Source: Glaciecola sp.
GTDB taxonomy: Bacteria > Pseudomonadota > Gammaproteobacteria > Enterobacterales > Alteromonadaceae
Direction: 5' to 3'
Assembly (NCBI GenBank): GCA_029246415.1
Contig: JAQWNF010000024.1
Coordinates: 1-64,000, forward strand
Length of the DNA stretch: 64,000 nt
The translations under genes and the position numbers were made by a program. A model generated the notes under the pieces. It was not told the origin of the DNA. It did not search any database and saw only the letters and a program-made list of their open reading frames with translations. This document shows, piece after piece, positions 9,126 through 62,398 of this stretch (within the stretch, counting starts at the first letter, position 1; each line of letters starts with the position of its first letter).

Positions 9126-11453
9126 CTAGTCATTCACAAATTCAGCATATGCTTGGCGTAAACGCGGTAAGTTTTCATTGATATAGGCTATACCTAAACG
9201 GTCAAAGTTAAAATAACGACCATTAAGCTGCTGCATATACGCAGGACGATACGCACGGTTGACAAATATTTGGTTAGTGCCGTTGTAACTCGATGTCGCC
9301 AACCCATAATTAAAGCGCTCTGCGGTACGTGCTTGGAAGCCATATTTAGACGGCGCCATATCCTTACGTGAGCCTAATGGGATGGTAAAGCCAATGCCTT
9401 TAATACTGACGTCAGTTTCACTTGCAAACACGCGCAAAATACTATCACCGATATTAGTACTCAAACCCACCGTTACCCCTTTGTCTCCGGCCCAAAACTG
9501 CCCGCCTTCCATAAACACATTCAGATCCAGCTCCGGCATATAATAACGATAGGAGCCTGTGAATATACGACGGTCGATACCGCTAGCCAGACGTGTTTGC
9601 AAATACGCATAATGATAGCCTAAGCGGTGACGACCATTGTTGGATTGCCACCCGGCTTCAAGCACAGCGACATTATGCTCTTCGTTATATTGCTCTTTAA
9701 CAATACCGACGCCACCTGCTACATAGACATTAAATGGTAACTGCATAGTCTGACGGGCAAACACAGACTTAAGGCCGGTTTGACTTCGGTACTTCCAAAA
9801 CGAGCCTCCTGCGTCAAAGTCTTCAGAGCGTGCGACGCTTAAATCATACTCAGCATACACTTCCGCACCCTGCCAAATCGGCATGTGCACATTAGTACGC
9901 AAGGTTAAGTTAAAATCAACCTGGCCGATTTCGGTGCCTATAAAATTAGGCACAATAGGATACACTTTAACTCGTGGGGTAAAATATGGTTGTTGCTCAC
10001 CACCAATCCAACTGGCTAATACGCTGTCGCGATCTTGTGGCGTAGCAGCAGTTAATTTTGGCTCCATAATAGCGCCATCGTAAAACTTCACCAATTGACT
10101 CAAGCTTGCCTGTGCCCTAAATGTCGGGACACCATAGCGTGATAACGTAAAGTCTAGCGCAGCAAGCTCAGCTGGCGCATGATTTGCCACCATGCCAAGG
10201 GCAACACCGATGGCATCGATGTTGTTGCGGTTGTATAAGGAGTTTTCTAACCGTACAAACAACTGACTAGCTTGGTGCCCTACCCATACATCTTCAAAAC
10301 CATGCTCAAGTAACGCTTGCTCTAGCGCAATTAGGTGACTGACTTGATCGGCAAATGCAGGCTGTTGCATTTGTTGACCGTTTTGTAATTTACTTTGATA
10401 ACCATCGGCAAAGCTCTCTTCAAAGCCGGGTATATTTTCCCCAGCTAAAAACCAGCCTAAATCATCACTCATCTTCATTGCTTTATAAGTATGAGTATCT
10501 AAGCCAGTGTTAGTACCTTGAAATAAGTTTACGCGCAATCCCACTTGATAAAAAACGCTGTCATTACCATCACCGACATCATGGTCGCCGGTCATCACCG
10601 AGCCATACAATTGTGCTTGGTTATTCATCCATGCTTTAGGGGTTTTAAATTTTGCAGCAATGGCGTTGTTGACCCCATCATGCTCTGCTTGTAGTTGCAG
10701 CCATTCAAACGGTTGATATTGGATCCCATAAAAACCGCCTACGTAGCGTTTGGCTAGACGTGCACGATTTGATTTAAAGCTACCGGTTCCGGCAGTGAAA
10801 CGTAATGGACCAAGATCCTTTGACACTACCACAAACTGACTATCTAAATGATCGGTGATCCCACCCAAATCTTGCATACCAAAGGCAATAGAGAACCATT
10901 CTTTTGGGATAAACGTTGGAGAGTATTTCACATTAGCCGACAGATCTGACCCTGCATCAAAGGTTCCGCCCGTATTACGGACAGTCGCTTCTAAACCTGG
11001 AAAAGGGCTAGCCGTTAACGTCAGGTTGTTACCATCTTGATACAGTCCATTGGAAGTTGCGTTAGTATAAGCGCCATTATCGGTAAGATTAGAAAACGTC
11101 CAATGTAACTCGCCATAGCTAATGGTGTTAGCTGTTGGCACGTTAATCAGACCACCAAAGCCTTGCACATTGACATCGGTATCTATTTGTTGCGTGCGCC
11201 AGAAGGATGGTGAAGTAGCGCTAGCACTCTGCGAGGTAGTTTGCACAGACTCAGCAGACTGAGCCTGCATAGCAATGCTTGACAATAACAATGATACTGA
11301 AGCTAACAAAACAGTATTCGATAACGATGCGCTACGCTTAGTCCTAATCTTAGTCTTAGACCTTTGCTTTAGCTTTGGCTGCGCACACGCATGTGAAGTA
11401 AATAGAGAGCTCATACAACGATTCTTTATAGTCATTTTTATATTAATTATCAT
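9126..11453 (-). CDS. YjbH-domain exopolysaccharide biosynthesis outer membrane protein
   Basis: VNVQGFGGLINVPTANTISYGELHWTFSN...GLEATVRN...SANVKYSPTFIPKEWFSIAFGMQDLGG..., YjbH family hallmarks. Confidence 0.85.
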   Translation of the reverse strand: MIINIKMTIKNRCMSSLFTSHACAQPKLKQRSKTKIRTKRSASLSNTVLLASVSLLLSSIAMQAQSAESVQTTSQSASATSPSFWRTQQIDTDVNVQGFGGLINVPTANTISYGELHWTFSNLTDNGAYTNATSNGLYQDGNNLTLTASPFPGLEATVRNTGGTFDAGSDLSANVKYSPTFIPKEWFSIAFGMQDLGGITDHLDSQFVVVSKDLGPLRFTAGTGSFKSNRARLAKRYVGGFYGIQYQPFEWLQLQAEHDGVNNAIAAKFKTPKAWMNNQAQLYGSVMTGDHDVGDGNDSVFYQVGLRVNLFQGTNTGLDTHTYKAMKMSDDLGWFLAGENIPGFEESFADGYQSKLQNGQQMQQPAFADQVSHLIALEQALLEHGFEDVWVGHQASQLFVRLENSLYNRNNIDAIGVALGMVANHAPAELAALDFTLSRYGVPTFRAQASLSQLVKFYDGAIMEPKLTAATPQDRDSVLASWIGGEQQPYFTPRVKVYPIVPNFIGTEIGQVDFNLTLRTNVHMPIWQGAEVYAEYDLSVARSEDFDAGGSFWKYRSQTGLKSVFARQTMQLPFNVYVAGGVGIVKEQYNEEHNVAVLEAGWQSNNGRHRLGYHYAYLQTRLASGIDRRIFTGSYRYYMPELDLNVFMEGGQFWAGDKGVTVGLSTNIGDSILRVFASETDVSIKGIGFTIPLGSRKDMAPSKYGFQARTAERFNYGLATSSYNGTNQIFVNRAYRPAYMQQLNGRYFNFDRLGIAYINENLPRLRQAYAEFVND

Positions 11454-49516: not shown

Positions 49517-49865
49517 AATACACTCCACATTATTTTGGTGCGTACTTTGTACCAATCTATGAATAAAAACACAATGTTTTTTTACCAATTTGCTACTTTT
49601 TGATGAGTTTACATTCGCTGAAGAATTGTTATCAAGGTGTAAAAAATCACAACTTAAAAATAAAAAACACTATAAAACAAACAGATAGAGATTATTAGAT
49701 ATTTCTATAGATAAAACACATAAATGGTAAGACCAATTTACTATTATGCGGAAATTGTGCATAAATAATCACTTTAATTAGGTAAATATTAGACGATATT
49801 TTGTGGAATGCGAGTTTGTTGGGTAATATTGTTGGGTTAAAGCTGGATCTTGGGGAATGGGACAC

Positions 49866-49895
49866 AAAAACGGCGCTCTAGTTGAGCGCCGTTTT
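49866..49895 (-). terminator. Rho-independent terminator downstream of DUF4402 gene
   Basis: AAAAACGGCGCTCTAGTTGAGCGCCGTTTT. Confidence 0.9.
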
Positions 49896-49918: not shown

Positions 49919-50536
49919 CTAGTAATCTACTTTTACAGCGTAAGTACCTGAGTATATACCATCAGTATATTCTTTATCTTTACCAGAAATCGCTAATTGA
50001 CCACCAACATTAAAGCTAATGACGCCATTTTCGTCAGAAGTAATGGTCCCTACGCCAGAAGTCAAAGTCACATTAGCAGTTTTACCCACTTCTCTTAATG
50101 TAAAAGCACTTAAAGAAAATTCTCCCGCTGCAGTATTGCCATTACTGGCTTTTAACGATACAGCGGTTGTGGGTAAGGTGATTTTCATACCTGTAAAACT
50201 AGCTACATTACTAACATCAAATGTAGCTGGCGTTCCCGCAGTAATTTGGTTCAATGTACCTAAATTTGCATCACCATCAGCTGAATCAGTTGTACCGTCT
50301 GGATTAATGGTAATTGTTGGGTTATAAGTTTCACTACCCGAAGTAGTAACTGGATCAGCTGACGCTTTGACTGCTGTTACAACACCAAAACTAAGCTGTG
50401 TCGTTTCAACTAAATCAAAAGCATTTTGAACTGTGACACTCGCTGTACCGTTAATTGACTCTTCAGCAAATGTTGGCGCGCTAATAAGGGTTGTTGTCGC
50501 CAATAAAGCGAACATAATTTTATTACGTTTTAACAT
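49919..50536 (-). CDS. DUF4402-like putative pilin/surface subunit
   Basis: Signal peptide; GTASVTVQNAFDLVETTQLSFGVVTAVKA; ...GTLNQITAGTPATFDVSNVASFTGMKITLP; last gene of chaperone-usher operon. Confidence 0.75.
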   Translation of the reverse strand: MLKRNKIMFALLATTTLISAPTFAEESINGTASVTVQNAFDLVETTQLSFGVVTAVKASADPVTTSGSETYNPTITINPDGTTDSADGDANLGTLNQITAGTPATFDVSNVASFTGMKITLPTTAVSLKASNGNTAAGEFSLSAFTLREVGKTANVTLTSGVGTITSDENGVISFNVGGQLAISGKDKEYTDGIYSGTYAVKVDY

Positions 50537-50758
50537 GGAAATCTCCGTATATTTTAAACTTGTCCATTACATCATTGACGCCACCATTAGCGTGAAATCA
50601 GTACTGTCGAGACCACTTTGTTTAGTTTGTCATCTCGCCAAATAGTGAGGTTTTATTCTGCCTACAACAACTTATCGACGAGATGCAAATTTACTAAAAC
50701 ATTTTTTTCAAAAAATCCATAATTAATTAAAAACGCCCTTTATTAACAATAAAAAATA

Positions 50759-51595
50759 CTATTGAAGTGTCACTTCTTTTTGAGCTAATACTTGCCCACT
50801 GAATTCTTTTTTGCCCTCGAAAACGACTGTTAAACTACCCTTGCTATTCTCTGGAATGGGCGTGTGCCAAATCAATTCTTTTGTTTGTGTTGGACTATCA
50901 TTATAAAAACTAAAATCATTTAATGTACCAACATTGATCGAGTTATTACTTCCAAAAGGTATGTAATAAGCATTTAGGCTTCCAGTACTACTAATATTAC
51001 CTTTTTGAGATAGTTTCACTAGTAACTGACGCATATTGGGCTTTTCTGGTACTGGATTGATCACCACTTCCTCTATCTGCGTTTCGATACTTGCTTCTCC
51101 ATTACGTAGTAGCACTGGAACAGAATAGCTCATCAATAAATTCAACTTCATCAACATACCTTTACTTGGTGAGCGGTTATCATTGCTGCGATCTATAGGG
51201 AGTGCGGTAAACAATAGATGTGAACGATATTCTTGTTCAGGCATATTGGCTTTTCTTCGCGCCAATACTTTTACGACTTGACGCTCTCCGGGCCCTAAAG
51301 TGACTTGACGAGGGGTGAAACGCAGGTATGGGCTGGCAATTGGAAAACTTTGCTTTTCTTCATCAGTTAGCATCACGTAGTTGCCATTCTCATCTACGCG
51401 CTTCTCTTCCCAACCCATACGGTAACTTTTAGTTTCGTTACCTGAGTTGATTAAAGTGATAGATTGCACACGCTCTCTGTCACTAAACGCTACGCGAGTA
51501 GGCGAGATCAACAAGTTTGCTAATGCCGTATCACTGAATACGAACATCGCCAATAACGCACACGTGCTTTGTTTCAATAGTAAAGGTAATTTCAT
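50759..51595 (-). CDS. Periplasmic pilus chaperone (PapD-like)
   Basis: LLISPTRVAFSDRERVQSITLINSGNETKSYRMGWEE...SPYLRFTPRQVTLGPGERQVVKVLARRK. Confidence 0.85.
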   Translation of the reverse strand: MKLPLLLKQSTCALLAMFVFSDTALANLLISPTRVAFSDRERVQSITLINSGNETKSYRMGWEEKRVDENGNYVMLTDEEKQSFPIASPYLRFTPRQVTLGPGERQVVKVLARRKANMPEQEYRSHLLFTALPIDRSNDNRSPSKGMLMKLNLLMSYSVPVLLRNGEASIETQIEEVVINPVPEKPNMRQLLVKLSQKGNISSTGSLNAYYIPFGSNNSINVGTLNDFSFYNDSPTQTKELIWHTPIPENSKGSLTVVFEGKKEFSGQVLAQKEVTLQ

Positions 51596-51652
51596 GGTGT
51601 TTCTTCCTTGATTAAAATTTCTGTATCAATATTCTTATTTAATGTTTATAAA

Positions 51653-52123
51653 TTAATAACTAACAGTTAACTTGAGTTGGTGTGTGTAGGTAGTGTCAAC
51701 AAAGTGATTCACACCAGAACCTGATGTCGTCAGCTTACCGCCAAATGGGACCACCGCGCTCCCATCGCTCTCTGTATATATCCGCTGAGTGACGTGAATT
51801 TGTTCTAGCGTGAAAACTTCACTCGAATATTTTTCAGCAAACGATTGTCCTTGTAAGATATGCGGTGTGATATGTAATTCGACATGTTGATAAAAGTCAG
51901 TCAATTCCATCACGCCTACCTCACCTACCGAGATAATATGAATATTATTCGACGAGCTAACTTGTCCGTACTGATTAATATTAATAAATCCAGGTGTATT
52001 ATTATTGGCGATGACAATATTCCCCATGCTTAATGGTTGTATTAGTTCTATTTCTTGCCCATCTGCAACCGACAAGTTTACCAGTAGAAGGCTTACTGCA
52101 AATACATCACGATAGAGACCCAC
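51653..52123 (-). CDS. Putative minor subunit/adhesin, DUF4402-like
   Basis: Signal peptide; IELIQPLSMGNIVIANNNTPGFININQYGQVSSSNNIHIIS; C-terminal HQLKLTVSY; inside the chaperone-usher operon. Confidence 0.5.
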   Translation of the reverse strand: MGLYRDVFAVSLLLVNLSVADGQEIELIQPLSMGNIVIANNNTPGFININQYGQVSSSNNIHIISVGEVGVMELTDFYQHVELHITPHILQGQSFAEKYSSEVFTLEQIHVTQRIYTESDGSAVVPFGGKLTTSGSGVNHFVDTTYTHQLKLTVSY

Positions 52124-52140
52124 GTTATCCCCTCCTATAT

Positions 52141-53151
52141 TTATAATGCTTCACCACTAAAATCCGTTACTCTGCAGTATTGTTTATTTTGGCGCACTTG
52201 TTGGCAAAATGCTTTAGCACCTAACTTGGTATCGTAAGGACCAACTCGTAAGCTATAAAACACCTGATTTTGAACGGCGACTTGTTTTACCACTGCCCCC
52301 TTATTACAGATAAATGGGTATTTTTTCGCTACATCATCCCACGCTTTAGTCAAAAAGCTCTCTTGCTTAAACGATGAAACATTTACGCCATATACACTTT
52401 TATCAGGTGCGACTTCTGTGGGTCTACACTCTTGATATGCTCGTTCAATAATATCTTTTGCGATGAGCTGCGTTTGTTCGCCACCTATATCTTGTGAGCG
52501 TGCAGTATTTTGTTCAGATACTGTTGAAGATTTAAAAGCATTAGCCACTGGACTTCCTGCTGCAGCCGCTTGTAAACCTACAGTTTGTACTTTTACCTGA
52601 TTGATTGGTTTTATGGGAGGTACGACCTTAGCGACGATAGTTTCTGGTGAGTTCGGTTCTGTTATAGCATTCGTACTGGGAGTATTTATAGTGGGAGTAA
52701 CAGCGGGTACCAGCTCTTCGCTCATATCTGATTCAGCAACAATACTGGTATCTGACGCCACACTATTTAACTCCACAGTATTATCAACCACGACAGGCTC
52801 AATGACTTCGCTTTCATCTAATGGTTTAACATCTGTTACTGGTTTAATTTCAGCTTTCGCTACTTGTACGCCATCATCATCTTGAAATCTTGCAATCTGG
52901 GTCACCAGTGTTCTTAGATCTGATTCAAGGGCCACTAATCGCTCAATCGCAGGGCGAGCAGCTTCATAATCAGCTATATGCGATTCAAGCTGTTCTTTCA
53001 TAATCTGTTGTTTAAGTGCAAGGTTTAACCCACCTTCAGCCGGTTTAGGTGTTGATTCGCATCCTGACATCGTCAACATGAGTAACATCAACGCCAACAA
53101 CCGACGTTGCCCAGCATTAAAAATATGAGTGTTCATCGTTTTCTTCCTCAT
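52141..53151 (-). CDS. Lipoprotein with C-terminal SPOR-like domain
   Basis: LTMSGCESTPKP lipobox; C-terminal VKQVAVQNQVFYSLRVGPYDTKLGAKAFCQQVRQNKQYCRVTDF; ATGA overlap with usher. Confidence 0.7.
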   Translation of the reverse strand: MRKKTMNTHIFNAGQRRLLALMLLMLTMSGCESTPKPAEGGLNLALKQQIMKEQLESHIADYEAARPAIERLVALESDLRTLVTQIARFQDDDGVQVAKAEIKPVTDVKPLDESEVIEPVVVDNTVELNSVASDTSIVAESDMSEELVPAVTPTINTPSTNAITEPNSPETIVAKVVPPIKPINQVKVQTVGLQAAAAGSPVANAFKSSTVSEQNTARSQDIGGEQTQLIAKDIIERAYQECRPTEVAPDKSVYGVNVSSFKQESFLTKAWDDVAKKYPFICNKGAVVKQVAVQNQVFYSLRVGPYDTKLGAKAFCQQVRQNKQYCRVTDFSGEAL

Positions 53152-56100
53152 GGTATTTCAACTTTGTGTGTGATTATTTCACACGCTATTCCTTGTTGTT
53201 CAAGCGCATTACATTGCTCAAACGCGTATTGTTTGTTTTGGTACAACCCCACACCTAAATAATCACCTTGCTGCGGATCATCATCATTGAAAAAAAAGGG
53301 CTCATTTAACATTGCTTTAGATTCATCACTTGTCGAACGTAATAATATTTGCCAGTAAGTTTGCATGATATCAGGTGTATTAAACTGACCTAGTGTGACT
53401 GCGTACTGTGCATCGTATTGTTTGGCATTAAGCATAAAATCGACACCACTGATCAAATCACCTTTTGCGCTGAGTGTGATTGGAATATCCTGAACAGGTT
53501 TTGCATCTCTAGCACGTAAATACTCATCGTCTACTTCTATGTGGTAATCACCAGGTAAAATATCTAAGAACAAATAATATCCGTCATATTCACTCGAAAT
53601 GCTTTGTACTAACTCACCATCGCTATTAATTAAATTAAGGGTTACGTATGCAAGCTGACGTTGGTTATCATATGCGTCAGTGAAAAAAACATTGCCTTCG
53701 ATTTCACTCGACATAGTGACCGGTATTGAAACTTCATTAATAAAGCCACTTCGACCACGTACCGCAAACCCTTTTTCAAGTTGCATCATAAATGGATCCG
53801 GTAAAGTATCTCGGTGAACAATAATATCTGTGACCACGCTGTCACGAATACCAGTAATACCAGCCACACCATCCTCGTTGGTTACCGCCCGACGTGTCGC
53901 TTGAGGCGCAGAGACTTTTACATTAGGTAGCGGTTCGTCATTTTCATCAAACACGCCATTGAGGTTATTATCTAAAAAAACGAGGGCAACTACAGTACCA
54001 GCACTTGTCAAACTGCGTCGATTCATTACCATGGTTTTAGCATCATCAACCAATCCCATCCCAAAACGGATATTCATACTAGAATTCCATCCCAAAATAT
54101 CGGAGTAGTTAAAATATGAAGATAATGAAAAGCTATCATGTCGCCAATTGATGTTTAAAGAGGTTTGTCCCGTCTTGTTTTCCAAATTACGTGATAAAGT
54201 CAAACGCGATTTGATATTGTTAGTGATATTGTAATTGAGCTGAGCGGAGAGCTGTTCAACATTCCACGTATCAAAATCAAACTGCGATTGCATATTCACG
54301 TCTACTTGGCCAATTTTGCGTGATACGTTTAAGCTACCAGATACATAATTTGAGCTATCATCGCCAAATTCGTCATCATTAAATGGTTGTGTATCATCAT
54401 CAACGCGATTAACAATCACGCCCAAATTTACGTTAGTTCCATATAGTCGACTACCAAACCGACTGCTTAGCCGTTTAGTAATAATGTCATTAACATTGCT
54501 ATTAATCGTAAAGTCATTTTGATAATTGAGATTTATATCACCAATCAATGGAAAGCCACCACTGGCCGATAGGAGTAAATTGCTAGCTGAATTGGTTTGT
54601 TGAATATCATTTTCATCTATGAACTCAGCTTGAGAATGTGAGACACTCGCAGATAGTGCGTGTTTTTTGAAACTGGTTCTCAATGAAGCATTAACCGATT
54701 TTTGTCCCGCATCAGTTCCTGTAAAGCTCAACCCCATGAGTAATTGATTCAACCATTGGGTATTTAACCCAACATTAAATAACTGTAAGTCCGTATCGCC
54801 ACCAAAACGATTTTCATACCCGGCACGAATCGCTAATGAAGGGGTGAGACTTTTTTCGTAATAACTACTTAGTAATGACCCATTTTTAATATCAGTATCA
54901 AGCTTATCGATATTAAGCATACTGTTATCTAAATCGGTTAACGATAATCCAAACAGTCCTTTTTTAGATTGCAACGTTTGGGTCACTATTCTTTCTATAA
55001 TCTTTGAATCCACCTGCCCTTGTGGTCCATAAAATTTCAACTCAAACGTGTTTTTTCCATAAAATAGTGGGATATCTTTAAACTCATATCGCCCAGTATC
55101 CACGGCAATCTGTCGTTCGATTAAGATCCCATTGCGGTATAGCTCAACATCCCAGTCCGTTTGTATTGGTCCTTGTAATGTTGTGACATCGATATCTTGC
55201 TCTGAATTGTTCGAGCGGTTTGTAAATGCAATACCTCTAGATAGGCCACCTGTCGAACTCAACCCTCCACGGACTGATTGCACATCACCAAATTCGATTT
55301 CAGTGATCCCTGTATTAAGTATCGAACCATTGAGAGCTTTTCTCGAAAAATTAAGTGACGCACTCTCCAAACCGGATTGATTAGACCCTCTTAAAAAAAA
55401 CTCACTACGCATAAACGCAAGATCACGCGCTCCTAAAGCGGAATAACCAAACGAAGTAGTACTATTGCCATGGCTCGCATTGAGTACCACGTCCATGGTT
55501 TGTGGGGACAGTAACTGATAATCGGCGTCTTTGGGCGTAAATTGCGCAGCCTGACGACCATATCCTTTATTGATTTTGTTATTTTTTCTGGCGTAACGTA
55601 ACTGTACTGGCAGCGGTGAACTGGCAGTTAAAATACACTTTAAGTTAATAAAGTCATACTCAAGTGTTAATCCAAACCACTGTGCTAATAATTCACCATT
55701 AATATAAATATCATCAAACTCGATTTGGTAATCATCTTGTTGTAGCTCTGATTGCACCCCGTTGATTTCTACAGTAACACTTTCAGCGCTACCGTCTTCG
55801 GGTCGATTGATGCTGAGTGAAAATAAATTCGCTTCTTTTATAAACCAACCGGTATATTCTGTCTGTTTGGCATTGACCTCAATAGCAAAATCCAAAGCGG
55901 TCTGAAATTCGTTTAATCCCAACCGTAATCCGTTTTGGTATTTATATGAGAATAACTCTCCGAGCTTCAGATTATCGATAATGATTGCAAAAATAAGCTC
56001 TTCGCCGTCTTTAAATCGTTTACTCGGATCTTTTAGCAACGGCGCTATGGGAATATCTTGTGTGATGGTTTTGTATTTATCGTTTAATCGGTATAACGCC

Positions 56101-56249
56101 TCTAAAAACTCGGCTTTTTGTGACTCTTGAAGCGGTAATTCTGACACTTCCTCACCGTGCACGTCAGACACACTGAAACACAGCGTCGATAGGCATAAAC
56201 CCAACAACACTATGTTTTTCAATGTATTAACCGAACTAAACACCATCAC
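53148..56249 (-). CDS. Outer membrane usher-like protein with Cna/SdrD-like domains and SPOR-like C-terminus
   Basis: Beta-barrel with plug (TDWDVELYRNGILIERQIAVDTGRYEFKDIPLFYGKNTFELKFYGPQGQ), VALVFLDNNLNGVFDENDEPLPNVKV, C-terminal YAVTLGQFNTPD...GVGLYQNKQYAFEQCNALEQQGIACEIITHKVEIP. Confidence 0.8.
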   Translation of the reverse strand: MMVFSSVNTLKNIVLLGLCLSTLCFSVSDVHGEEVSELPLQESQKAEFLEALYRLNDKYKTITQDIPIAPLLKDPSKRFKDGEELIFAIIIDNLKLGELFSYKYQNGLRLGLNEFQTALDFAIEVNAKQTEYTGWFIKEANLFSLSINRPEDGSAESVTVEINGVQSELQQDDYQIEFDDIYINGELLAQWFGLTLEYDFINLKCILTASSPLPVQLRYARKNNKINKGYGRQAAQFTPKDADYQLLSPQTMDVVLNASHGNSTTSFGYSALGARDLAFMRSEFFLRGSNQSGLESASLNFSRKALNGSILNTGITEIEFGDVQSVRGGLSSTGGLSRGIAFTNRSNNSEQDIDVTTLQGPIQTDWDVELYRNGILIERQIAVDTGRYEFKDIPLFYGKNTFELKFYGPQGQVDSKIIERIVTQTLQSKKGLFGLSLTDLDNSMLNIDKLDTDIKNGSLLSSYYEKSLTPSLAIRAGYENRFGGDTDLQLFNVGLNTQWLNQLLMGLSFTGTDAGQKSVNASLRTSFKKHALSASVSHSQAEFIDENDIQQTNSASNLLLSASGGFPLIGDINLNYQNDFTINSNVNDIITKRLSSRFGSRLYGTNVNLGVIVNRVDDDTQPFNDDEFGDDSSNYVSGSLNVSRKIGQVDVNMQSQFDFDTWNVEQLSAQLNYNITNNIKSRLTLSRNLENKTGQTSLNINWRHDSFSLSSYFNYSDILGWNSSMNIRFGMGLVDDAKTMVMNRRSLTSAGTVVALVFLDNNLNGVFDENDEPLPNVKVSAPQATRRAVTNEDGVAGITGIRDSVVTDIIVHRDTLPDPFMMQLEKGFAVRGRSGFINEVSIPVTMSSEIEGNVFFTDAYDNQRQLAYVTLNLINSDGELVQSISSEYDGYYLFLDILPGDYHIEVDDEYLRARDAKPVQDIPITLSAKGDLISGVDFMLNAKQYDAQYAVTLGQFNTPDIMQTYWQILLRSTSDESKAMLNEPFFFNDDDPQQGDYLGVGLYQNKQYAFEQCNALEQQGIACEIITHKVEIP

Positions 56250-57119: not shown

Positions 57120-57374
57120 ATGAAAGCGATTAGACCGATTTTGGTACAAAGCTCAACGAGTATCTCAGAGCTAAAAAAGAACCCTAGAGCCGTTATTCAA
57201 CAAGGTGAGGGCTTTCCCGTAGCGGTATTAAACAGAAATAAACCGGAGTTTTATTGTGTGCCAGAGGCATTATTTGAAAAGATGACGGATCAGTTAGAAA
57301 ATATGCAACTACTTAGGTTAGTAGCTCAGCGACACAGTCAACCTGAGAGTGAGATCAACATTGGACATTTATAA
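57120..57374 (+). CDS. Phd/YefM (StbD/RelB)-like antitoxin
   Basis: VQSSTSISELKKNPRAVIQQGEGFPVAVLNRNKPEFYCVPEALFEKM. Confidence 0.9.
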   Translation: MKAIRPILVQSSTSISELKKNPRAVIQQGEGFPVAVLNRNKPEFYCVPEALFEKMTDQLENMQLLRLVAQRHSQPESEINIGHL

Positions 57375-57627
57375 ATTAATATTTAAAAAAGAAGCCCTAG
57401 AAGAATGGCTGCAATGTGAAGCCTTTGTCCAACGCCAATTTAAACATCAATTAAAAGCGCGCTTATCAATGCCTAAAAGAGGGGCTGATAGGCTAGATGA
57501 ACGCACTCAATCCTATAAAATCACGCTAACACAGTCACAATACAGACTAGTGTATCAAGTGAGGGATGGCGCACAAGAAATAGCGATTATTGCTATCACT
57601 CACCGCGCTTTTCATCATCTTTGGTAA
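57349..57627 (+). CDS. RelE/StbE-like toxin
   Basis: YKLIFKKEALEEWLQCEAFVQRQFKHQLKARL...DRLDERTQSYKITLTQSQYRLVYQVRDGAQEIAIIAITHR. Confidence 0.9.
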   Translation: MRSTLDIYKLIFKKEALEEWLQCEAFVQRQFKHQLKARLSMPKRGADRLDERTQSYKITLTQSQYRLVYQVRDGAQEIAIIAITHRAFHHLW

Positions 57628-58643: not shown

Positions 58644-59462
58644 ATGAACTTTTTTAAACGTTCAGTGACAGTCATAGCCACATTTGGTGCACTTTCGTTA
58701 GCTGCTCCAGCTGCATTTGCGGGATATAACGTCATTGATTTTGACAAAACGGACACAGGTGCGAACATCTCAGATGGGCGCATTATAGATAATGAGTACC
58801 TCACTAATTTTGGTGTGACTATTTCCGGTTGTAACTGGCGTGGAACGGCAACAACTCACCAAATGAAAAACAATAAATGTACTTCTAATGACATTGCAAA
58901 CAACCAAGTTGCGTTTGATACCAATAATTCACACAGCTGGGACAATGATTTAGAGTTTAATAACCCACATAATGATTATAGTAGTGAATACACAGCTCTT
59001 AACATTGGTGATTATCAAGGTTCAAGCAAGCCAAATAACATCTTGATTATTCAAGAAGATTGGAAACAACATTGTGATGCCGTTGAATGTGAAAATCCAA
59101 ATGATGAAGGTGCACAACCAGCTGGTTTCTTCCAATTTGATTTCGACCAATTAGTGGATATCGTTAGCATTGACTTCTTTGATATTGAAGAAGGTACAAA
59201 TAGCTGGAAAAACAGAATTTCTTTCTATGAAGGCAACACTGAAAAATCTTTCGGTAACGTCCCACAAACAGGTGATGGTAGCTACGAGCGCGTTGCGTTC
59301 AATGCTGTTGGCATCGACCGCTTAGTGATCAGAATGCCTGGCTCTGGTGCTATTGATAACCTAGTATTCCGAACTGGACATGCTGATGTACCAGCTCCAG
59401 CATCGCTTGCAGTTTTATTATTAGGCATAGTCGCCTTAAGTTTCCGCAAGATCCGCGGATAA
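58644..59462 (+). CDS. PEP-CTERM sorting-signal secreted protein
   Basis: Signal peptide; C-terminal VPAPASLAVLLLGIVALSFRKIRG (Pro-Ala-Ser, TM, basic tail). Confidence 0.85.
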   Translation: MNFFKRSVTVIATFGALSLAAPAAFAGYNVIDFDKTDTGANISDGRIIDNEYLTNFGVTISGCNWRGTATTHQMKNNKCTSNDIANNQVAFDTNNSHSWDNDLEFNNPHNDYSSEYTALNIGDYQGSSKPNNILIIQEDWKQHCDAVECENPNDEGAQPAGFFQFDFDQLVDIVSIDFFDIEEGTNSWKNRISFYEGNTEKSFGNVPQTGDGSYERVAFNAVGIDRLVIRMPGSGAIDNLVFRTGHADVPAPASLAVLLLGIVALSFRKIRG

Positions 59463-59482
59463 CCTAATATAGCAAGACACTA

Positions 59483-59519
59483 AAAACGGTGTTGCTGGGA
59501 GCAGCGCCGTTTTTTTTTA
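59483..59519 (+). terminator. Rho-independent terminator
   Basis: AAAAACGGTGTTGCTgggAGCAGCGCCGTTTTTTTTT. Confidence 0.9.
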
Positions 59520-59554
59520 CACAATTTGTCAGAATTTGATACAGGATGTAACAA

Positions 59555-62398
59555 ATGGGGTTTAAGGGAATATTTTGTGCGGCAATATTTGTTGCATGTA
59601 CATTACAAACAACAGTAATGGCTCAAGATAATTCAGATACGGTATATGCCTATTATGAAGAAGCCGTCGTTAGTTTTAACCAAGAAGAATATGAAACGAG
59701 TTATATTCATCTCAAAAATGCGCTCGATATCGATCCTGACCATTTACCATCTAAAATTCTGATTGGTAGATTACTCTTAATCAATAACCTACCCGAAGCT
59801 GCTATCACTGAATTTGAAGAAGCATTGTTAGCTGGTGCCGATCCTAATATTGTTTTGGTCCCTTTGATACGCGCATATATTTTTGTCCAAGAATTCAAAA
59901 AAGCGACAACCGTATCCTTGCAAAATCTTTCTCGTGAAAACAAGTTTGAAGTCTATTTACTCCAGGCTAGTGCTTATAGCAATACTGACAACACAGAATT
60001 AGCATTTGCACATTATCAAAAAGCCAAACTATTAAAGCCAGAAAATACACGTTTATTAAATTCAATGGCATCGCTGTATATGAGTAACGATGTGTGGGGC
60101 AAAGCGGCTACATTAATCCAAGAGTCATTAGCTTTAGACCCAAACAATCCCAAGACCCAACACCTTCAAGGCACATTTTTATTACTGCAAGACAATGTTG
60201 ATGGGGCGATTAAAACGTTTGAATATGCATACTCAAAAAGTCCAGGCAGCCCGATAATTCAACGCTCATTAGCAAGTGCTTACTTACGTAAAGGTATGCA
60301 AAAAAAAGCGTTAACCTTAATTGAACGCATGTTGAAAGAAACCCCCGATCCGTTCACTAAACTCCTATATGCGCAGCTCACCAATGACGAAAATAATGAG
60401 CAGGCAAATAAACTTTACCAAGAAGTAACGCAAACATTGAGTTTGTTACCAGAGGATATTCGAGTTAATCGTAACGATATTACATTAATTAATGCCCTTG
60501 CCTCCTACTTTCAGAAAAACTACGAACAAGCTGCCAATGATTTACAGCGCTATGTAAAAAATGCACCAAACAACATCAACGCGTTGAAATTATTGGTCGA
60601 TTCGTATATTCAATTAGAACAATTTCTTAATGCAGTGCGCGTATTAGAAGCTAATAACGCGATGGTAATGAAAGAGCTGCCGCTCACCGTTACCCTGTGT
60701 AATCTATATTTTGAGCTTGATCGTGGATTTAAATGTGAATCTATTATCCGCGAATTACGCGTCTTTATGGAAGACCAAAGTACCCTGAACCTATTAGAAG
60801 TGCGTTCTCTAAATAACCGTGGCGAAAGCCGTGAAGCCTTGACCATGTTTGAAGAATTCTTCAATAACGTCAATTATCCTTACTTAAGACAACTGCACAT
60901 TGAGCTGCTATTGCAAAACGGCCTGACTTCTCGTGCACGCCAAGTGATGGATAGTGAAATTAAACGTGCAGCTGGTGTCATTGGCGATTTACCGCGTGAG
61001 ATCCACCTGCTCAATGCAACGGTATTATTACAAGAACGCAAACTCGAAGACGCGTTTAATGAAGTACAAACCGTTCTAAAACGCGAGCCTAATTTATCAA
61101 GTGCGCGCTTTCTTCAAGCGCAAATCATGTATTATCAAAATCGCTTTGATGATTCTATTGTGATGCTAGATTCGATTAATGAAACGTACTCTCCTTTGGA
61201 GGTTGCTAAGTTTATTGCACAAAATAAAATTTCACAGAACAAGCTCGAAGAAGCATATGACTTAATCAACCCACTCTTTGAAAAAAATCCCAAAAATATC
61301 AGTATTCTGGAAATGATGATGGAGATTTTTTCACTCAAAGAAGATTATGAAAATGCGTTGTGGATCAACCAAAAGCTAATGAAAACATCCTTCATGAATA
61401 CACAGTATTTAATAACACAAGCCAATCTATACCTAAAATCGAATCAATTAGAAAACGCTGTGACCTCATTTGCTAAAATAGCCAACGTCGTCAAAGACAA
61501 CCCGGTTGGATTGGTTCAATTAGCTCAATTACAAAGTGAAGCGCAACTATTTGATGACGCGTACGAAAACATCAAGCGTGCACGAACTATGTTGCGTGGT
61601 GATATGACATTGGATATGCAGGCGCGTATTTTACAAGCTGACATTCTATTTAAAAACCGTCAGTACAATCAGGCGATCACTTTAGCGCGCTCGGTAGTAT
61701 TAAATGCATTTAGCCGTGATGAAAAAAAGATCCTTCGCTTACAAGCTATGTTTATTATCGGTGAAGTTTATCGTGCGCAGGCACAGTACCAACAAGCAGC
61801 AGATATTTTTGTCGAGCTGTTTAATAATGGTCTACCCAATCAAGCTGGTGCCTACTTATATGAGTTGACCACCAAACGACTTAACGAAGATGTGTTTACG
61901 ATCCATGCTGAAAACTTATTAAAAGCCCAACCTGAGCAACAATTTGTGCGCCGTTTGTTAGCCGACTTTTATCTCCAGACTAATCAAAAAGAGCTAGCAA
62001 TGGGCCATTATAACCGTTTACTCGAAAGTGAAAACGTGACTAAACGCGAACAAATTTATAATAATTTAGCGAATATCTTGGTTGATACGGATCTAGATGA
62101 AGCTGATAAATACGTACAAATGGCATTTGAAATCAATCAACAAGATGCGCAAATCATCGATACCATGGGCTGGATTTATTTTCAGCGCAGTGATTATCTC
62201 AATGCTCTTAGACAGTTTCGCAAAGCCTATGTTCTAGACAGCACTGAGCCAGGTATTAAATATCACCTAGCGTATGTACTGTACAAATTAGGGCGTGTTG
62301 ATGAAGCGAAAAAACAGCTCGAACGTCTGTTTGATGAACATGAAGACTTTCAGCAGCAAGCTAAAGCAAAAGCCTTACTCGCTGCATTGAAAGTCTAA
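59555..62398 (+). CDS. TPR-repeat protein resembling PEP-CTERM system protein PrsT
   Basis: YYEEAVVSFNQEEYETSYIHLKNALDIDPDHLPSKILIGRLLLINNLPEAAITEFEEALLAGADPNIVLVPLIRAYI; about 20 TPRs; next to PEP-CTERM gene. Confidence 0.75.
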   Translation: MGFKGIFCAAIFVACTLQTTVMAQDNSDTVYAYYEEAVVSFNQEEYETSYIHLKNALDIDPDHLPSKILIGRLLLINNLPEAAITEFEEALLAGADPNIVLVPLIRAYIFVQEFKKATTVSLQNLSRENKFEVYLLQASAYSNTDNTELAFAHYQKAKLLKPENTRLLNSMASLYMSNDVWGKAATLIQESLALDPNNPKTQHLQGTFLLLQDNVDGAIKTFEYAYSKSPGSPIIQRSLASAYLRKGMQKKALTLIERMLKETPDPFTKLLYAQLTNDENNEQANKLYQEVTQTLSLLPEDIRVNRNDITLINALASYFQKNYEQAANDLQRYVKNAPNNINALKLLVDSYIQLEQFLNAVRVLEANNAMVMKELPLTVTLCNLYFELDRGFKCESIIRELRVFMEDQSTLNLLEVRSLNNRGESREALTMFEEFFNNVNYPYLRQLHIELLLQNGLTSRARQVMDSEIKRAAGVIGDLPREIHLLNATVLLQERKLEDAFNEVQTVLKREPNLSSARFLQAQIMYYQNRFDDSIVMLDSINETYSPLEVAKFIAQNKISQNKLEEAYDLINPLFEKNPKNISILEMMMEIFSLKEDYENALWINQKLMKTSFMNTQYLITQANLYLKSNQLENAVTSFAKIANVVKDNPVGLVQLAQLQSEAQLFDDAYENIKRARTMLRGDMTLDMQARILQADILFKNRQYNQAITLARSVVLNAFSRDEKKILRLQAMFIIGEVYRAQAQYQQAADIFVELFNNGLPNQAGAYLYELTTKRLNEDVFTIHAENLLKAQPEQQFVRRLLADFYLQTNQKELAMGHYNRLLESENVTKREQIYNNLANILVDTDLDEADKYVQMAFEINQQDAQIIDTMGWIYFQRSDYLNALRQFRKAYVLDSTEPGIKYHLAYVLYKLGRVDEAKKQLERLFDEHEDFQQQAKAKALLAALKV

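Follow-up and report, generated by a model that had tools for sequence, protein, structure and literature searches.

The window analysed here, a 64,000-nucleotide stretch of a Glaciecola sp. contig (JAQWNF010000024.1, positions 1 to 64,000, assembly GCA_029246415.1), carries on its minus strand a five-gene operon of the chaperone-usher type. We consider the chances about even that this operon encodes a pilus platform held to peptidoglycan mainly through a partner lipoprotein, the SPOR-fold tail of the usher being more likely a docking domain. A first-pass annotation had read the order as usher, SPOR lipoprotein, small subunit, chaperone and DUF4402 subunit, with the usher stop and the ATG start of the lipoprotein overlapping as ATGA, and this reading was confirmed by the open reading frames (ORFs) of the window and by Pfam and profile matches. 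Chance is excluded as the origin of the gene set because all five gene types recur in 64 of the 80 related loci that were fetched and because the same genome has a paralogous operon on a different contig.

The usher escapes routine detection. Pfam Usher (PF00577) does not match the window protein at E up to 1, and the Pfam matches obtained for it are to SdrD_B (E 2.2e-8) and CarboxypepD_reg. Since Pfam alone fails in the window for both the usher and its tail, fold and family-level evidence were used for both, a PF00577 match being taken as an aid to detection and not as the definition of a chaperone-usher pathway. An AlphaFold (AF2) model of the usher built from 55 homologues (predicted local distance difference test, pLDDT, 85.2) comprises an N-terminal domain, a long plugged beta-barrel, SdrD/Cna-B-like C-terminal domains and a terminal alpha/beta domain. 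When this model was compared with the PDB by Foldseek, the top 18 matches were all to FimD or PapC, the best being FimD in 3rfz (E 6.1e-26 over 928 alignment columns, with about 11% identity). The window pore is thus predicted to be a true usher of the FimD/PapC type, far diverged from its counterparts in type 1 and P pili. It would share with them the N-terminal domain, the plugged barrel and the C-terminal domains, along with a PapD-type chaperone and subunits with and without a donor-strand-like extension (as judged here from sequence pattern). However, it differs from them in its low identity in the fold alignment and in escaping the Pfam Usher model, and also in its SdrD/Cna-B-like C-terminal domains, its SPOR-fold tail, its DUF4402 subunits and its dedicated lipoproteins. 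Two distant members of the family, L091 and L102, have weak PF00577 matches below the cut-off, and the usher of L091 has in addition a Cu_amine_oxidN1 match in its N-terminal part. Sequence searches of the PDB with the usher and tail profiles gave no usher or SPOR match; the antibody matches that they returned were dismissed as noise, as were weak Pfam matches to Vasculin, Cep192, Glyco_hydro_1 and similar families. The family points to a group of ushers that is missed by the standard Pfam model and would be overlooked in domain-based surveys.

The other parts of a chaperone-usher route are present as well. The chaperone matches PapD_N (PF00345; E 2.4e-5, 24.8 bits against a cut-off of 23), and the product of the last gene matches DUF4402 above the cut-off (E 1e-7). 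The small subunit has no Pfam match; the profile of its family matches that of the DUF4402 subunit with a probability of 99.6%, and the alignment begins only at the first residues of the mature small subunit. Ahead of the aligned part, the DUF4402 subunit carries an extra N-terminal stretch with alternating hydrophobic residues (e.g. TASVTVQNAF) that is missing from the small subunit. Judging from this pattern, the stretch would be a donor strand and the small subunit, which is without it, would be the tip subunit.

The proposal of the first-pass annotation that the usher ends in Cna/SdrD-like modules followed by a SPOR-like tail has held up. Predicted alone from 48 homologous tails, the last ~90 residues give a beta-alpha-beta-beta-alpha-beta model (pLDDT 88.9), the ribonucleoprotein (RNP)-like fold expected of a SPOR domain, and the first Foldseek match among 350,542 PDB chains is the SPOR domain of CwlC (1x60, probability 1.00). 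With an E-value no better than 0.013 and a widespread topology, this match is not proof alone. The tail of the window usher itself has no Pfam SPOR match, but 13 of the 48 homologous tails match SPOR at E up to 1 (best 4.9e-9), while any other family is matched by at most one tail. Moreover, the tail profile matches the profile of the lipoprotein SPOR family with a probability of 98.5%, and the two families have an invariant C-x9-C pair in common, represented in the window tail by C1013 and C1023 and invariant across the aligned tails. Distant ushers from Desulfobacterota and other Gammaproteobacteria carry SPOR domains above the Pfam cut-off, some of them in tandem; in the Desulfobacterota this clear SPOR in cis goes with the absence of such a lipoprotein gene from the fetched locus. 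Considering the model together with these family-level matches, the end of the usher most probably adopts a SPOR-type fold. Three genomes of the same family (loci L027, L028 and L029) have very long ushers of 1178-1214 residues with a C-terminal extension of ~300 residues, which holds a Pfam SPOR domain (L027 and L029) and further SPOR-like sequence; their loci encode several subunits of DUF4402-like type but lack a lipoprotein of this family.

The SPOR domain at the end of the partner lipoprotein, also proposed in the annotation, lies above the Pfam cut-off (E 7.5e-6, 26.6 bits against 21), and 57 of 58 lipoprotein homologues match SPOR too. The lipobox, MSGC, is followed by Glu. Lipoproteins with such a residue after the lipobox Cys are sent to the outer membrane according to the usual Lol rule, and the partner lipoprotein is therefore predicted to reside there. 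Its N-terminal part contains a helical motif with a consensus of roughly W-x3-KPxIERLxALExDLxxLIxQL; a CooC_C match (E 0.0097, far below the cut-off) falls on this motif and was dismissed as a coiled-coil match. A hidden Markov model of the motif, trained on SPOR-type lipoproteins only and run against the 1538 ORFs of all loci, finds ten further lipoproteins with E-values between 9e-10 and 4e-4, whereas the first unrelated ORF comes only at E 0.66. Four of the ten, from three Paraglaciecola and from locus L058, carry the motif fused to a C-terminal FlgO domain (L035, L037, L039 and L058; assigned by Pfam in L035, E 1.8e-36, and by sequence likeness in the other three). The remaining six are of an alphaproteobacterial type with an AMIN-type domain: Pfam AMIN matches three of the six at E up to 0.05, with 22.5 bits in L093 against a cut-off of 20.5 and 18.5 bits, just below it, in L096, and the profile of these lipoproteins matches PilQ in the PDB (E 3e-4). 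As far as domain matches can tell, the C-terminal module of the lipoprotein is swapped between lineages, being SPOR in most of them, AMIN-type in the alphaproteobacterial loci and FlgO in some Paraglaciecola. AMIN and SPOR, along with LysM, have been described as binders of denuded peptidoglycan (PMC5285504). The use of two wall-binding domains of unrelated kinds within one lipoprotein family argues more strongly than any other observation for wall contact as its purpose. Separate FlgO-like lipoprotein genes (PF17680) recur beside the operons (L024, L027-L029, L033, L041, L054, L056 and L062); since some operons merely adjoin flagellar genes, these neighbours were not counted as members of the system, for which only the fused motif-FlgO form was accepted.

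The residues of the sugar-binding site bear on the question of which SPOR folds may touch the wall. RlpA holds the glycan by Q270 and an arginine patch formed by R302, R309 and R311, and FtsN contacts it by Q251 and R285 (PMC6895207). At the positions of R309 and R311, a basic residue is found in 56 of the 58 lipoproteins as opposed to 5 of the 48 usher tails, and Gln occupies the position of Q270 in 32 lipoproteins and two tails. Because the tails have largely lost the glycan residues of RlpA and FtsN, the anchoring to peptidoglycan that the annotation had envisaged is less convincing for the usher, as a direct wall binder, than for the lipoprotein, which is the likelier anchor; the tail may more likely be a docking domain or a modified site than a direct wall binder. 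Most lipoproteins belong to one of two subtypes that co-vary at Q270/R309/R311, QRK (27/58) and HSR (17/58). The residues in the window are N, S and R for the lipoprotein and T, Y and G for the usher tail. Going by these residues, the canonical wall binder would be the QRK lipoprotein, the window's own copy being of a less certain subtype. The QRK-type lipoproteins share both the SPOR fold and the glycan-site residues with FtsN, DamX, RlpA and CwlC, proteins with roles in division, wall cleavage and spore lysis, none of which is known to act in pilus assembly; the usher tails differ from these proteins in the missing glycan-site residues and in the conserved Cys pair. Many operons (L033, L034, L041, L054, L056, L061 and L081) have two lipoproteins, of which one is QRK and the other HSR, and at several loci one lipoprotein gene precedes the usher and one follows it, which raises the question of two ligands or partners.

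It is possible that the usher tail binds peptidoglycan itself through a changed site, so that pore and lipoprotein would be two independent wall anchors, as the first-pass annotation had it. The SPOR-type fold of the tail and its retention throughout the main clade (see below) speak for this idea, as do the clearer and sometimes tandem SPOR domains of the distant ushers, and many glycan contacts of RlpA are made by the main chain (PMC6895207), so that loss of side chains need not abolish binding. However, the near absence from the tails of the Gln and basic residues that the lipoproteins have kept makes a second anchor unlikely. Conversely, the SPOR folds could be protein-protein modules throughout, with the lipoprotein acting as a pilotin or gatekeeper for usher insertion, dimerisation or opening, and without any wall binding. 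Many protein-interaction folds have a SPOR-type topology, and such a role would suit the gene overlap, the constant partnership of usher and lipoprotein, the lost sugar-site residues of the tails and the existence of HSR as a second, non-canonical lipoprotein subtype. Yet pure docking does not predict that SPOR should be exchanged for another wall-binding domain, AMIN, and it fits poorly with the canonical glycan site kept in the QRK-type lipoproteins; we regard this explanation, too, as rather improbable. Anchoring mainly through the lipoprotein, with the usher tail as docking domain, is the reading that we prefer.

The organisation is old and widespread, mostly in marine Gammaproteobacteria and also in Alphaproteobacteria. 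A scan of genome contigs with a single sequence gave no match, but a scan with an alignment of six ushers found 194 relatives, of which the best 80 were fetched as loci. The 64 complete loci are from Alteromonadaceae (25) and Pseudoalteromonadaceae (24), and further from Shewanellaceae, Psychromonadaceae, Colwelliaceae, Vibrionaceae, Oceanospirillaceae, Ferrimonadaceae, Alphaproteobacteria and others. The commonest gene order is lipoprotein, DUF4402 subunit, small subunit, chaperone, usher, lipoprotein; the usher-first order of the window is that of the Glaciecola-like group. In a FastTree tree the tail is present in all 64 main-clade members, and a locus often has two or three lipoprotein genes. 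Such persistence has to be set against the simplest explanation, namely that this is an ordinary chaperone-usher pilus to which tail and lipoprotein are accessories of little consequence. The usher core fold and the chaperone are indeed of a known kind, and tail and lipoprotein are absent from some relatives; but the main clade and several families have retained the tail along with one lipoprotein or more, often with two or three lipoprotein genes, and we hold this explanation to be very unlikely.

Several points do weigh against the anchoring that we prefer. Seven sampled ushers are without the tail and also without such a lipoprotein at their locus, so that the core family can do without both. 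A phylogenetic pair test of the co-occurrence of tail and lipoprotein had only four independent pairs, too few for significance. The lipoprotein of the window falls in the HSR-type subset and not in the canonical QRK one, and its ligand may differ. Finally, the docking of lipoprotein and usher is a guess from gene order.

If the lipoprotein is the anchor, the operon would use the chaperone-usher route to assemble a thin pilus or a fibre on the cell surface, as follows. The chaperone would deliver the subunits, of which the small one, being without a donor strand, would enter first and end at the tip, and the DUF4402 subunit would polymerise behind it by donor-strand exchange. The divergent usher would be the outer-membrane pore and an assembly platform coupled to peptidoglycan. 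The outer-membrane lipoprotein would use its conserved N-terminal helical motif to dock on this platform. With its C-terminal module, which is SPOR in the window and AMIN or FlgO in relatives, it would grip the wall, most likely at peptide-stripped glycan made by amidases. The SPOR-fold tail of the usher would then most likely be a docking site, perhaps for the sister SPOR domain of the lipoprotein. Coupled in this way, the pore would be secured against pull, and the platform could also be positioned at septa and new poles. In Pseudomonas aeruginosa, the AMIN domains of the type IVa secretin PilQ are required for the recruitment of type IVa pilus components to sites of division (PMC5285504), and this precedent, along with the AMIN domains of the alphaproteobacterial partner lipoproteins, makes septal placement, which the annotation had also proposed, more plausible here, by analogy. 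Both systems would combine a pilus pore of the outer membrane with a domain for binding septal peptidoglycan and recruiting pilus components, and AMIN-type domains occur in both; the pores and pili are unrelated, however, and PilQ carries the wall-binding domain within the pore protein, whereas here it would be mainly on the lipoprotein. The scaffold GspB/OutB of the type II secretion system is likewise reported to link an outer-membrane secretion pore to peptidoglycan (PMC9239104); the pore and the proteins are different ones. A bolder reading, which we consider less likely than not, is that the operons represent a widespread, undescribed chaperone-usher class in which modular lipoproteins, made up of a helical docking motif and a SPOR, AMIN or FlgO module, couple the usher to peptidoglycan and pre-install the platform where cells divide, so that the pili would be septal or polar, as a counterpart of recruitment by PilQ.

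In the best-studied chaperone-usher systems the usher is an outer-membrane pore that is not known to be linked to the wall, which leaves two questions largely open, namely how such pores withstand pull and what position they take on the cell. The family offers natural ushers with a wall-binding-type partner, for example in Pseudoalteromonas and Shewanella, marine bacteria that can be cultured and in which both questions could be addressed by deletion of single domains. Literature searches for ushers combined with SPOR or other wall-binding domains found no description of this system, and those for DUF4402 (PF14352) found no paper; as coverage of subscription papers and bioRxiv was incomplete, both absences are only suggestive. 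The architecture, which the first-pass annotation had not recognised as described, thus still appears to be new, and together with the exchange of SPOR, AMIN and FlgO it would surprise specialists. As a candidate new system it is not peculiar to the window, since the family extends across several orders.

Table 1. Features of the operon and its 3' flank in window coordinates.
Feature	Coordinates	Strand	Basis
Usher (1033 aa), pore for pilus assembly in the outer membrane; C-terminal SPOR-fold extension (predicted)	53148..56249	-	ORF, AlphaFold model, Foldseek
Usher N-terminal periplasmic domain, residues 84-209 (predicted)	55623..56000	-	AF2 secondary structure
Usher beta-barrel region including plug, residues about 251-734 (predicted)	54048..55499	-	AF2 strands, FimD/PapC fold match
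Usher SdrD/Cna-B-like C-terminal domains, residues about 750-942	53424..54002	-	Pfam SdrD_B, AF2
Usher SPOR-fold tail, residues about 945-1031 (predicted)	53157..53417	-	AF2, Foldseek, profile match, homologous tails
Partner lipoprotein, 336 aa, lipobox MSGC	52141..53151	-	ORF, lipobox, ATGA overlap
Lipoprotein N-terminal helical motif (SHIADYEAARPAIERLVALESDLRTLVTQIARFQ), common to SPOR-, AMIN- and FlgO-type partners	52882..52983	-	Motif hidden Markov model, sequences
Lipoprotein SPOR domain	52180..52398	-	Pfam SPOR on whole protein; genome search match at same coordinates
Small DUF4402-like subunit without N-terminal donor strand; probable tip/first subunit	51653..52123	-	Profile match
PapD-type periplasmic chaperone	50759..51595	-	Pfam PapD_N
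DUF4402 major subunit with donor-strand-like N-terminal extension (NGTASVTVQNAFDL)	49919..50536	-	Pfam DUF4402, profile comparison
Probable terminator 3' of the last gene, ACGGCGCTC-AACTA-GAGCGCCGT followed by a T-run	49865..49894	-	Read by eye; not listed by pattern scan

A tRNA-Arg and a tRNA-Ser gene lie directly upstream of the operon. In a genome of the same genus (locus L021) the operon is flanked, as in the window, by oxaloacetate decarboxylase-type genes and, at the opposite end, by a phosphatidylserine synthase-like gene, and the locus has therefore been inherited vertically there. In the paralogous second operon (L020, G000:C29, ~9160-9165), the lipoprotein gene has an in-frame stop inside the SPOR domain, the rest of which continues in the same frame; this is either decay of that copy or an assembly error. 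On the plus strand of the window, a pair of genes for a Phd/YefM-like antitoxin and a ParE-like toxin occupies 57120-57627, and at 58644-62398 a gene for an exported protein whose tail resembles PEP-CTERM (PAPASLAVLLLGIVALSFRKIRG) precedes one for a tetratricopeptide repeat (TPR) protein of 947 residues, a pair that is also found in L021.

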